From the NCBI GenBank assembly GCA_017962665.1, contig JAGCUU010000037.1, positions 1-61,167 of the forward strand: 61,167 nucleotides of DNA, given 5' to 3'. The translations under genes were made by a program, and so were the position numbers. The notes beneath the pieces are model-generated. The model searched no databases, was not told the origin of the DNA, and saw nothing but the letters and a program-made list of their open reading frames with translations. Source of the DNA: Bacteroidales bacterium. GTDB taxonomy: Bacteria > Bacteroidota > Bacteroidia > Bacteroidales > P3. Positions 54,142-58,331 of the stretch are shown here, piece after piece. The stretch's first letter is position 1. Each line of letters opens with the position of its first letter.

Positions 54142-54218
54142 GATGTATTATTAAATGTGCTCACAATGAACAGCTGAGACCGAATTTTAACAGGTTTTAG
54201 CAGTCATTATTTGTTTTG

Positions 54219-54367: not shown

Positions 54368-55309
54368 TCAGTTTTTGACCGTCATAATTGCCGAAATAGT
54401 GAGACGGTTATCTTCGAGGCTTTCATCTTCGTGAACGCCCCATAAAATATCTAAATGGTCGCCAATAAGACAACGGAGCTTATCTATTGTCGTGTATACT
54501 TCAAGTGGTGTCAACAGAACTGTTTTTGAAAAAGATATTAATAATATCATATATGCTATATTACACATTTGGGTCCCTGACAACTCTATATTTTTAATCA
54601 TGTTGTCGCTGGCTTCCTCCATGCGTTTTTCACCATGTCCGGATCCATTGGCAAAAACCATCCTGTCACCATACTGTAAAACTGTCGCTATGTCGTTATA
54701 GTCAATGTTTATACCGCTATTCAGTATTGTCTGGCTAAGGGTATTGATAATATTGTATGCATGTTCGTCAACCTTCTCAAATGCTGAATTAATAGATATG
54801 TTTATATTATTTCTTAGGTCGTCGTTCTCGAATGTGATGACTTTGGTGGCCTGTTCTGAAATCATTGCCAGATCATTGGAGACCTTTTTTTCTCGTCTTT
54901 CAAAAGCAAACGGGACTACGGCATATACAATTGAAATATTATTTTTGGTGTCGTCATCGTCTGGCGATGGTTTGAATAGGCTACAAAGTGTTGATACGAT
55001 GGGTGCGCTGTTTTCACCACCCATTCCGGCTATCACAATGATAATGCCGGCACGATTGCCGATAGCGGCGCGCAGCTTCCTGTAGAGGTTTGCATCGTCT
55101 TTGTCGACGAAGTGTTTGTCGCCCACAGCCTTCCTGGCGTCAAGTGCTTTCCTGTCGTTGTCTATGAGGGCATAGTCAACCTTGATGTCCCTCAACCCTT
55201 TCTTGCAGATATTTTCTACTATATTACCCCCACAGCCGCCAACGCCGATAATCTTTACAACACTTGGGAGATTCTCTGCCTCCATCCTGTCAAAAACAAT
55301 ATTGTCCAT
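54368..55309 (-). CDS. Divergent FtsZ/tubulin-superfamily protein
   Basis: The 313-residue protein aligns along its length with FtsZ. The first glycine loop is GVGGCGGN (22-29); the AGMGG strand (94-98) leads into ENSAP where FtsZ has the GGGTGTGAAP T4 loop, so the GTP signature is lost; VVPFAFERREKKV (131-143) matches the T5 region; NIDYNDIATVL (201-211) keeps both T7-loop aspartates (203, 206); NGSGHGEKRMEEA (221-233) matches the next FtsZ segment. The C-terminal linker and FtsA-binding peptide of housekeeping FtsZ are absent. It should be a specialised paralogue. It is 17 bases after the ion-channel gene, so the products probably work together. Nucleotide binding cannot be predicted with confidence. 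Confidence 0.75.
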   Translation of the reverse strand: MDNIVFDRMEAENLPSVVKIIGVGGCGGNIVENICKKGLRDIKVDYALIDNDRKALDARKAVGDKHFVDKDDANLYRKLRAAIGNRAGIIIVIAGMGGENSAPIVSTLCSLFKPSPDDDDTKNNISIVYAVVPFAFERREKKVSNDLAMISEQATKVITFENDDLRNNINISINSAFEKVDEHAYNIINTLSQTILNSGINIDYNDIATVLQYGDRMVFANGSGHGEKRMEEASDNMIKNIELSGTQMCNIAYMILLISFSKTVLLTPLEVYTTIDKLRCLIGDHLDILWGVHEDESLEDNRLTISAIMTVKN

Positions 55310-55326
55310 TATATTTCTTTAATATT

Positions 55327-57060
55327 CTAACCGATATTCATTTCATCCAATGTGTCCATCAGCACCTTGATTGCGGCATAATAACGTTCGTCTTCGGCTT
55401 TCAGTATGCTTTTCACGTTCAAGTATAGCGCCACGACGGTGACATGTCTGTGGTTGAACAAGGCACGGGCGATATGATTTTCGCCTATACCAAGACCTTT
55501 GTTGTGAGTGGCAAAGCTGAAATTGAAGGTGAAGTCTTTGCGCGATGCAGCATGCACCGTGATTTCAGCGGAATGGGACTTCAATGTCTCGCCGAGGCGT
55601 TGTACCCACTCGCGGTCCTCATCGACGACATGTGAACCCTCGAAGCTGTAGCCCTCGGTGCCTTTGGGCATACCCCACTCCATCTCGAAGTCGGCGCCGC
55701 CCGAGGCGCCGCTCATCAGGCACAACACACGTTGCCCCTTCTTTATTTTCTGCATATCTGAGATGTAGTGGGCAAAAAGTTCGTTGTCGTCTTTGACTTG
55801 CATGTCAGCATAGAATGGACTGACGTATATGCCATTTTCATTTTCAGCACCGTAAAAACGCCGCTCACGGGAGATGATATTGAAGTCATAGTTTTCTGCC
55901 ATCGTGGCAACGATATGCGACAGGCAGGGTTCTATCGTGCCCGCTGGGTTAAGCAGCACCAACTGCTCGTTGTCGTTCCAACGACAGTGACCATAGTCTT
56001 TGCCTGACAGATGTTGTTCTACCACCATTATGTCGTTCACTCTCAAAGTTTCGTCGCTCTTCATTGGACGCAACCTCATGTCGGATGCCGACCTCACGGT
56101 CTCGATAATCTCGTTGTCGGTAAGCATACAGATTGAGCGTATGGATTCCGTTGAAAGGTATCGTACAGGTGCCGACCTTTGATGCTCTTCGTCGCTAAGC
56201 AACATTTTCTTTTGGGAACGGTTTGCCTTGAAACGCTGATAAATCAATTTGCGTTTTTCTTCCAGATCCTTTATTTTGTGATCCTCTTCGATGGTTTCGA
56301 CGAAACCGGACCCGATCAATCCTGCCGGAACGGCGAATATGGCGATTCCAAGAACGCCAACGATGACAGCGATTAAGCGTCCACAAAACGTTATTGGTGG
56401 AGTGTCTGCAAAGTTCCCTGGGTCGCCGATATATTGTGCAAATGCCCATATCACACTTCTCCATCCATTGTCGTATACCTCGGGTTGGGCCTGATGTTCT
56501 ACAAAGAATAGCAGGAATGAAAGAATGAGCGTGACGATGCAAAGGAACTGCAACGATATCCAAAGTTCATTTTTCTTTGACTCAATGGCGTTGCTCAGCA
56601 CTTGGAACGACTTCATATATCTGAATATGCGTAACAAGCGGAATACACGCAGTACTTTAAGTGCTATGTACGGGATGGGGAACAGCAGCGCAATATAGAA
56701 CGTGTAGGTGGAAAGAAAATCTATCAATCCATAGAACGAAAAGCAGTAACGCACCCTGCCCCAGAACCCCTTGTATTTCGGGTTGATAATGTCGGCACAC
56801 CATATTCTGAGCGATACCTCTATGGTGAAGAATACTGTCGTTAATAGATCTATCGCGTTGAGCCAGGCACTATATCTTTGGCTGATGTTGTCAAAGGTGG
56901 ACAGGAAGACCTCAACTGTGCTTAAAATAATGAATCCGATGATGGTCCAGTCAACGGCATTTTCCCATTGCTCGGTGCGAAGGTTGTCGTCAAAAACCCG
57001 TGCCAGACTTTGTTTGAAACTTCTTTTTTGCTGTTCTGTCTCCACTTGTGTATTATTCAT
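55327..57060 (-). CDS. Voltage-gated-type ion channel with a large C-terminal cytoplasmic domain
   Basis: The 577-residue protein has six membrane helices (about 36-255). S4 carries basic residues every third position (K135, R138, R141, R144, R147, K150), as in voltage sensors. The pore loop before S6 reads AFAQYIGDPGNF (206-217), where potassium channels have TVGYGD and NaChBac-like channels have TLESWS. S6 is 226-255 and has a glycine-rich hinge region. Residues 256-577 form a cytoplasmic part that I do not recognise, containing LVLLNPAGTIEPCLSHIV, LCLMSGASGGADFEMEWG and HIARALFNHRHVTVVALYL. It is 26 bases after the MalY-type gene and 17 before the FtsZ-like gene. Confidence 0.82.
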   Translation of the reverse strand: MNNTQVETEQQKRSFKQSLARVFDDNLRTEQWENAVDWTIIGFIILSTVEVFLSTFDNISQRYSAWLNAIDLLTTVFFTIEVSLRIWCADIINPKYKGFWGRVRYCFSFYGLIDFLSTYTFYIALLFPIPYIALKVLRVFRLLRIFRYMKSFQVLSNAIESKKNELWISLQFLCIVTLILSFLLFFVEHQAQPEVYDNGWRSVIWAFAQYIGDPGNFADTPPITFCGRLIAVIVGVLGIAIFAVPAGLIGSGFVETIEEDHKIKDLEEKRKLIYQRFKANRSQKKMLLSDEEHQRSAPVRYLSTESIRSICMLTDNEIIETVRSASDMRLRPMKSDETLRVNDIMVVEQHLSGKDYGHCRWNDNEQLVLLNPAGTIEPCLSHIVATMAENYDFNIISRERRFYGAENENGIYVSPFYADMQVKDDNELFAHYISDMQKIKKGQRVLCLMSGASGGADFEMEWGMPKGTEGYSFEGSHVVDEDREWVQRLGETLKSHSAEITVHAASRKDFTFNFSFATHNKGLGIGENHIARALFNHRHVTVVALYLNVKSILKAEDERYYAAIKVLMDTLDEMNIG

Positions 57061-57086
57061 TGTGTTGATTTTTGATTAATGAACGA

Positions 57087-58331
57087 TTATAAAATAAGTT
57101 GGCTCATCTGGTGTGCCAAGGTTTTCTCTATCCTGCCGAGGCCTTCTATCAGCATAGCTTTGGGACAGCCAAGGTTCATTCGGAAGCAGCATTCGTAATC
57201 TTTACCTCCGAATGTAGTGCCGTCATTCAGTACAATACGAGCTTTGTTGAGAAGGAGCTCCGCGAGTTCATTGTGAGGAATATTGTATGCGCTGAAATCG
57301 AGCCATGCCAAATATGAGGCTTCGGGGAGTACAACTTTGATTTTGGGCATCCTCTCTTTGAGAAAGAGATCCAACGTTTTGACATTTTCGTTTAAATAAT
57401 CGAGCATCTGTTTCAGCCATTCTTCGCCATGGGCAAAAGCCGCTTCGGCAGCGGTGAAAGCAAAGATATTGCCTCCTGCCACGCCCAAACCGTCGAGCCA
57501 GCCGAAAAAGACTTTCCTAAGTTCCTTGTTGTCAATATAACATATTGAGCTGCCCAATCCAGCAATATTAAAAGTCTTGCTGGGCGCCATAAATGTGATG
57601 CTGTGCCTTTTGGCAACCTCGCTGACAGTGCTGTAGCTTATGTGCTTGTGTGGCGGCAAGGAAAGGTCGGCATGAATTTCATCGCTTATGACTATCATTC
57701 CCTTGCGTTCGCAGATGTCAGCGATGCGTTCCAGCACATCTTTGCCCCATACGGTTCCTGCAGGGTTGTGTGGGTTACTGAGTATTAGGAGTTTGCAGCC
57801 TTCAGCCTTGCGTTCGAACTCCTCGAAGTCTATTTCGAATCTGCCCCTATTCGGTTCTCCACCTAAGTTATGGTGAGTACCACGAAGAGTCGAGTGTGTG
57901 CTTATCTTTAACGGGCAGCATACCACCTCTCTCCCACTCTCTTTTGGAAGGTTCAGGAATGGCGGATAAACGGGCGTGGTGACCAGCACACGGTCGTTTG
58001 GCTGTGTGAGGCAAAGTAGCGCGTAAGCGATGCCTGCAACGATGCCTGGTATGAAATGGAGTGTTTCGTCGGTAGTCTGGATGCAATAATGTTTTTGTAG
58101 CCATGAGGTGACGGCCTGCCAGTAACTCTTGGATGGCATGGTGTACCCCAGAACTTCATGGTCGCAGCGTTTCCGTATGGCTTCCATCACGAAGTCCGGT
58201 GAACGGAAATCCATATCTGCCACCCACATGGGCAGCAGGTCGTCATACGTATACTGTTTTGTCGGTGCATCCCATTTGAAGCAGTCTGTACCACGACGTT
58301 CTATTTCTTCATCGAAGTTGTATTTTTTCAT
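57087..58331 (-). CDS. MalY/PatB-family PLP-dependent aminotransferase or C-S lyase
   Basis: The 414-residue fold-type I PLP enzyme has MWVADMDFRSP (34-44), NPHNPAGTVW (186-195), the cofactor aspartate in ISDEIHADL (about 217) and the PLP lysine Lys252 in APSKTFN. MalY/PatB members are often cystathionine beta-lyases. An insertion of about 19 residues (143-161, THSTLRGTHHNLGGEPN) sits where relatives have a short loop; the usual text resumes at RFEIDFEEFE. The gene is 31 bases after the purine permease and 26 before the channel. Confidence 0.92.
   Translation of the reverse strand: MKKYNFDEEIERRGTDCFKWDAPTKQYTYDDLLPMWVADMDFRSPDFVMEAIRKRCDHEVLGYTMPSKSYWQAVTSWLQKHYCIQTTDETLHFIPGIVAGIAYALLCLTQPNDRVLVTTPVYPPFLNLPKESGREVVCCPLKISTHSTLRGTHHNLGGEPNRGRFEIDFEEFERKAEGCKLLILSNPHNPAGTVWGKDVLERIADICERKGMIVISDEIHADLSLPPHKHISYSTVSEVAKRHSITFMAPSKTFNIAGLGSSICYIDNKELRKVFFGWLDGLGVAGGNIFAFTAAEAAFAHGEEWLKQMLDYLNENVKTLDLFLKERMPKIKVVLPEASYLAWLDFSAYNIPHNELAELLLNKARIVLNDGTTFGGKDYECCFRMNLGCPKAMLIEGLGRIEKTLAHQMSQLIL
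57849..57905 (-). repeat. In-frame 57-base insertion inside the MalY-type gene
   Basis: These 19 codons encode ISTHSTLRGTHHNLGGEPN, which have no counterpart in the loop between PLK and RFEIDF of other MalY proteins as I know them. The DNA has a GTGGTACTCAC segment with partial inverted symmetry. It keeps the reading frame. It may be a small repeat element or local duplication, but no second copy is visible in this window. Confidence 0.45.

Follow-up and report, generated by a model that had tools for sequence, protein, structure and literature searches.

On the minus strand of a Bacteroidales contig (JAGCUU010000037.1), a gene for a voltage-sensor-type channel is followed by a gene for an FtsZ-like protein. 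Both components are unusual, and their pairing was found only in the window, i.e., the whole stretch of 61,167 nucleotides that was analysed. With a probability of about 0.5, we read it as a neighbourhood peculiar to the lineage, in which a cation channel that is probably non-selective stands beside a derivative of FtsZ that is unlikely to polymerise, and not as a conserved module. A conserved two-gene module is not supported and was rejected as a general claim, since neither gene brings the other with it in the genomes searched.

Layout and surroundings of the gene pair

The pair, its intergenic gap and its upstream flank are as follows:

55327..57060, minus strand: gene for a voltage-sensor-type channel of 577 aa with a cytoplasmic C-terminal domain (open reading frame, Pfam, PDB)
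54368..55309, minus strand: FtsZ-like gene, 313 aa (open reading frame, Pfam, NCBIfam, PDB)
55310..55326, minus strand: intergenic gap of 17 nt between the channel gene and the FtsZ-like gene (open reading frame coordinates)
57087..58331, minus strand: gene for a class I/II aminotransferase in the upstream flank, outside the pair and 26 nt before the channel gene

The channel gene comes first on the minus strand and the FtsZ-like gene second, and both frames are open without internal stops. The sequence-only reading had described the two genes as lying 17 bases apart on the same strand, which was confirmed, and as almost certainly cotranscribed, which is better worded as likely: the 17-nt gap makes cotranscription likely and is no argument for a functional unit. 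The gap is the 15th smallest of the 34 same-strand gaps in the window (median 19.5), as ranked by simple gene calling for same-strand neighbours with frames of at least 100 aa. Since 26 nt separate the channel gene from the aminotransferase gene before it, and another 31 nt separate the latter from a permease gene further upstream on the same strand, the close-set same-strand run comprises four genes and not two. Downstream of the pair, nrdD starts after 226 nt. The remaining genes of the window resemble, judged by eye, ordinary core or housekeeping genes, and remnants of the usual channel clusters were searched for in the window and none was found. The source genome is 76.6% complete.

Several candidate repeats were observed around the pair. 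These are the imperfect direct repeat D5 (16 nt, 88%) at both edges of the pair (54144-54159 and 57049-57064), the imperfect direct repeat D4 (17 nt, 82%) with copies about one pair-length apart, and an inverted repeat of 12 nt, whose copies are also about one pair-length apart around the gene pair. No empty insertion site for the pair was available for comparison: the aminotransferase gene and nrdD are non-adjacent in all 36 relatives in which both were detected.

The channel and its family

Within the channel protein the following features were located:

56287..56958, minus strand: voltage-sensor and pore domain, residues 35-258 (Pfam Ion_trans)
56617..56661, minus strand: S4 segment LKVLRVFRLLRIFRY, residues 134-148, with a basic residue at every third position (sequence scan)
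56404..56433, minus strand: pore filter YIGDPGNFAD, residues 210-219, at the place of TVGYGD in K+ channels (alignment)
55330..56187, minus strand: cytoplasmic domain at the C-terminus, residues 292-577 (no relative found in Pfam or PDB)

The protein belongs to the voltage-gated ion channel superfamily by its Ion_trans score (69.2 bits, cut-off 25) and by the regular basic spacing of its S4 pattern RVFRLLRIFRY, and KCNQ channels are its best PDB matches, which bears out the earlier identification as a voltage-gated-type channel. A PHROG of unknown function matches its membrane part (E 2.8e-26). The hydropathy scan alone gave broad hydrophobic stretches in residues 34-258, and six transmembrane helices would be expected from family membership. 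The K+-selective TxGYG filter is replaced by YIGDPGNFAD. The [IL]GDPG filter is present in 34 of 35 members of the channel family, the exception (L193) being unmatched by the search pattern, and all 22 members that were aligned share Y210, G212, D213, P214, G215 and D219. Ordinary channels of other genomes kept TTVGYGD in all eight examined, these being eight of 15 such loci, checked with a script that sought GYGD-like motifs only. The GDPG filter suggests that the channel probably is a non-selective cation channel lacking K+ selectivity. The large cytoplasmic domain claimed from the sequence alone is present as residues 292-577, for which no Pfam family and no PDB match better than E 0.59 was found; the tails of other family members gave scattered weak Pfam matches only (best E 0.021). 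This domain probably acts as a gating sensor.

The channel family was detected in 20 of 120 genomes of the genus (E ≤ 1e-30), in 11 of 393 genomes sampled across the order (E ≤ 1e-45), the own genome included in both counts, and in one of 395 genomes sampled across the phylum, which is the own genome. In the samples searched the family is restricted to Bacteroidales, and its profile found no relative among viral contigs. The neighbourhoods of 31 other channel loci (L051-L055 and L193-L218) from 30 genomes, the own one included, were surveyed over up to about 9 kb per side, less at contig ends, with genes called by script; the weaker match G085:C9 was left out. Near the channel, all 31 loci encode one or more members of a composite protein family, which was built by single linkage and can therefore chain common domains; the window alone is without it. 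The second channel copy of the own genome (G000:C3) lies in a cluster of this kind and has no FtsZ-like gene beside it.

Among the tighter parts of this composite family are a small protein of about 115 aa (20 of 31 loci), a protein found at 15 loci with an OmpA domain in the one member tested, and kinase-type proteins, of which one was tested, in sub-clusters of seven, four and two loci. Found at fewer loci are a pyroglutamyl peptidase (seven), TerB (four, with a Pfam score just over the cut-off) and a KAP NTPase (three), with one member tested for each. Three loci encode a PvuRts1I-like modification-dependent nuclease (PADLOC E 2.8e-77, one member tested); the enzyme at L205:5334-6215 and its relatives in L203 and L206 sit roughly 300 bases upstream of closely related channels. 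Defence-like genes are found at a minority of the loci, and the PADLOC kinase matches are generic. The gene directly 3' of the channel varies among the other loci, and an ordinary-length ftsZ lies near the channel at two of the 31 (L201, and L216, where it is adjacent and convergent). In addition, a Ser/Thr kinase with a leucine-rich tail was seen in the recurrent Bacteroidales accessory neighbourhood, and at L059 (G025:C58:11314-11739) a channel copy broken into pieces lies downstream of a gene that by eye looks PvuRts1I-like.

The FtsZ-like protein and its relatives

Alignment with FtsZ places four loops in the protein:

55223..55246, minus strand: T1 loop GVGGCGGN, residues 22-29, kept
55064..55132, minus strand: T3 region, residues 60-82, about 16 residues shorter than FtsZ TxGLGAGAxPExGRxAA
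55001..55027, minus strand: T4 loop GMGGENSAP, residues 95-103, in place of GMGGGTGTGAAP and three residues shorter
54692..54709, minus strand: T7 synergy loop N-I-D-Y-N-D, residues 201-206, kept

The identification as a divergent FtsZ-like protein also held. The protein belongs to the FtsZ/tubulin superfamily (Pfam Tubulin 38.3 bits, gathering score 33), and it scores below the cut-offs for Pfam FtsZ_C (18.2 versus 27 bits) and for the NCBIfam equivalog ftsZ, TIGR00065 (77.1 versus 295.2 bits), so that it is an FtsZ relative under the FtsZ cut-off. As solved FtsZ chains match it with E 8.8e-15, this resemblance is not due to chance. Membership in Tubulin_2 (PF13809) is not indicated by 12.7 bits against a cut-off of 27, nor is membership in the PhuZ phage tubulins (PHROG 4733) by a match of E 0.057 over residues 177-215 only. 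The T4 signature GGGTGTG is absent (GGENSAP versus GGGTGTGAAP in FtsZ), and the T7 motif NxDxxD is present with N201, D203 and D206. The protein ends at residue 313, the FtsZ_C match covering residues 220-310, and thus has neither linker nor C-terminal peptide, while ftsZ frames in the genus mostly have 510-680 aa. The own genome's ftsZ is located elsewhere (G000:C24).

Among the 146 FtsZ columns that are at least 95% identical in 23 FtsZ sequences of the genus, 53 are kept, among them 9/15 in T1, 2/13 in T3, 7/20 in T4, 6/9 in T7 and 4/6 in residues 282-300. T7 together with residues 282-300 is kept above T3 and T4 (10/15 versus 9/33, p=0.013), a comparison picked post hoc after the alignment. 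The shortened T3 and T4 loops disfavour a GTP-driven filament, and the protein most likely does not polymerise.

The clade of FtsZ-like proteins of this type was found in three of 190 genomes of the family with 281-521 bits, by a profile of four known domains, for which the carriers score high by construction, as their own sequences built it. The next row after the three carriers has 165 bits, and later listed rows are frames of ordinary ftsZ length; across the 393 genomes of the order the next best row after that of the window has 157 bits, and the matches listed for the genome collection are mostly ordinary ftsZ. When the window protein alone is the query, the carriers score 208, 150 and 104 bits, against a maximum of 111 bits for ordinary ftsZ. 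Owing to this overlap, only the profile, the tree and the shared T4 form mark out the copy in genome G006. In a 67-row tree the four FtsZ-like domains fall into a single group (support 100/98, with a long-branch warning).

The second carrier, G005, is another species of the same genus and encodes two FtsZ-like copies fused in one uninterrupted gene of 698 aa (L056:9757-11853), one of the two domains having lost the T7 motif. In both domains the bias of T7 over T3/T4 is absent (p=0.52 and 0.74). This gene is followed 3' by one for a TPR protein and then, on the opposite strand, by one for an AAA+ protein that weakly matches a kinase. The copy in G006, a genome that is 72% complete, is a fragment in a frame of 192 aa that ends before the C-terminal domain; it is followed 3' by a WYL protein and, further on, by two proteins, one matching vWA weakly and one with WG repeats. 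The shortening of T3 and T4 is common to the window protein, the double gene of G005 and the G006 copy. Weak similarity (E 5e-8, 2e-9 and 6e-4) links the AAA+ protein of G005 and the WG-repeat proteins to proteins of a few channel clusters.

Other short FtsZ copies were observed in related genomes. The sister-genus genomes G910 (L315:1456-2103) and G909 (L316:1486-2130) each encode a protein of roughly 215 aa that resembles the GTPase domain of FtsZ alone, with T4 intact and the C-terminal domain absent, and short second copies lie beside ftsZ in G958, G960, G959 and G029 (L308, L309, L310 and L314). A phage origin of the FtsZ-like gene was rejected, the profile having found one viral-contig relative with 21% identity, and so was a plasmid or phage origin, with 16 plasmid records and one phage record that all match partially at about 27% identity or less. 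Of the plasmid matches listed, 14 of 15 are annotated as ftsZ.

The proposal that the two genes act as a functional unit was not supported by the comparison of these distributions: the homologues occur mostly without each other, an outcome for which the sequence-only reading had itself foreseen that the adjacency would be accidental. The FtsZ-like paralogue is present at none of the 31 other channel loci. Three of these loci (L054, L055 and L205) are cut off by the contig end ahead of the gene 3' of the channel; a search of the three whole genomes found no short FtsZ paralogue. Conversely, at E ≤ 1e-30 the channel family is not matched in G005 or G006, which give weaker channel matches only, and the FtsZ-like clade lies beside the channel in one of its three carriers, the window. 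With three carriers only, the single pairing could be a real, young unit.

Possible roles of the pairing and comparison with known systems

In the preferred reading the channel gene and the FtsZ-like gene would probably give one transcript and two accessory proteins. The channel, whose relatives lie in accessory clusters that are partly defence-like, may pass cations without K+ selectivity through the open GDPG pore and so depolarise the membrane, with its C-terminal domain sensing a signal and gating the pore. The FtsZ-like protein would be an FtsZ-derived paralogue in which the overall sequence of both domains, T1 and T7 have been kept and parts of T3/T4 have been lost, and it may bind FtsZ, an FtsZ-directed protein or another partner instead of polymerising. 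A functional link between the two proteins is conjectural.

Retention of T7 together with the shortened T3/T4 and the absent linker and C-terminal peptide would also suit a poison or regulator of division, which joins the host FtsZ filament via its T7 face, refuses the next subunit and thereby caps the filament, the channel being a chance neighbour or a membrane anchor. This is unlikely: other reduced FtsZ copies do occur in related genomes, but one G005 domain has lost the T7 motif and the G006 gene ends before the C-terminal domain. That the FtsZ-like gene is a functionless duplicate decaying behind the channel by chance appears quite improbable. Its fast divergence and long branch, its occurrence in three carriers only and the fragmentary G006 copy would be expected of decay, but the frame is of full length without stops, the C-terminal region and T7 motif are kept, and T3/T4 are shortened alike in G006 and in the uninterrupted double gene that another species carries. 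A filament at the membrane coupled to voltage or ion flow, as proposed from the sequence alone, seems remote. The same-strand adjacency, the intact frames and the voltage-sensor segment of the channel fit it, but the shortened T3 and T4 disfavour it and the two genes do not co-occur elsewhere.

A further reading is that of a decoy with a guard, in which the FtsZ-like protein serves as bait for FtsZ-attacking phage proteins, and binding of the bait opens the cotranscribed channel, which depolarises the cell and stops the infection. In its favour, the T7 loop, described in excerpts of a report on CapRel-Ebc as the main contact site of T7 Gp0.4 on FtsZ (PMC13423816), keeps 6/9 conserved columns, and the post hoc comparison given above (p=0.013) shows it, with residues 282-300, kept above the shortened GTP loops. 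Moreover, defence-like genes stand beside some channel relatives, and conflict systems are reported to include FtsZ/tubulin domains, rarely, among their effector domains (excerpts of PMC7159879). However, the T7 bias is absent in both G005 domains, the genes surrounding the pair look by eye like housekeeping genes, the PADLOC models gave no family for either protein at E ≤ 1, and the pairing occurs once. We regard the decoy as decidedly improbable and its sharpest form, a minimal effector-triggered immune unit in which a polymerisation-dead FtsZ bait is wired to a non-selective cation channel and the cell is killed or arrested once the bait is taken, as slightly more improbable still. If the decoy existed, bacteria would be using an altered division protein to trap pathogens and would couple this trap to depolarisation of the membrane.

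Irrespective of the pairing, the analysis describes a channel family of Bacteroidales whose filter differs from both the K+ type and that of NaK, with an unassigned C-terminal domain and a recurrent multi-gene neighbourhood, as well as an FtsZ clade with shortened GTP loops. The combination of an ion channel with a tubulin-superfamily protein, which had been called unfamiliar as a described module, was found in no paper among the open-licence literature matches listed, subscription papers being mostly outside the scope of that search.

The channel resembles the KCNQ and Kv channels, which include its best PDB sequence matches, in being a voltage-sensor channel, and it differs from them by GDPG in place of TxGYG and by a C-terminal domain without PDB match. 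The NaK channel is not known to have a voltage sensor. Its wild-type filter TVGDGN is described as non-selective in excerpts of PMC9822992 and shares with the window's YIGDPGN the replacement of GY by GD; from the GDPG filter and this likeness we infer a channel without K+ selectivity, and the selectivity is a guess, since the proline of GDPG is absent from the NaK filter given there. With FtsZ (TIGR00065) the FtsZ-like protein has in common the T1 loop, the T7 motif and a similarity that spans both domains, whereas it lies below the cut-off, has shortened T3/T4 and no tail, and the true ftsZ is located elsewhere. Extra FtsZ-related genes in genomes that keep an ordinary FtsZ were described by Makarova and Koonin (2010) as the families FtsZl1 and FtsZl2, with vWA, kinase and OmpA neighbours (excerpts of PMC2875224), and vWA, kinase-like and OmpA types are likewise encoded near the G005 and G006 copies or near other channels. 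By the features described in these excerpts, the window protein is set apart, as FtsZl1 and FtsZl2 carry GGGTG(S/T)G and other C-terminal regions and it has neither. The activation of CapRel-Ebc by T7 Gp0.4 bound to FtsZ, mainly via the synergy loop, provides a precedent for FtsZ within a phage-sensing complex; as far as the excerpts of that report (PMC13423816) describe it, this system relies on the FtsZ of the cell itself and on a toxin-antitoxin effector, with no channel or FtsZ paralogue, in contrast to the channel and FtsZ-derived paralogue that are paired in the window.
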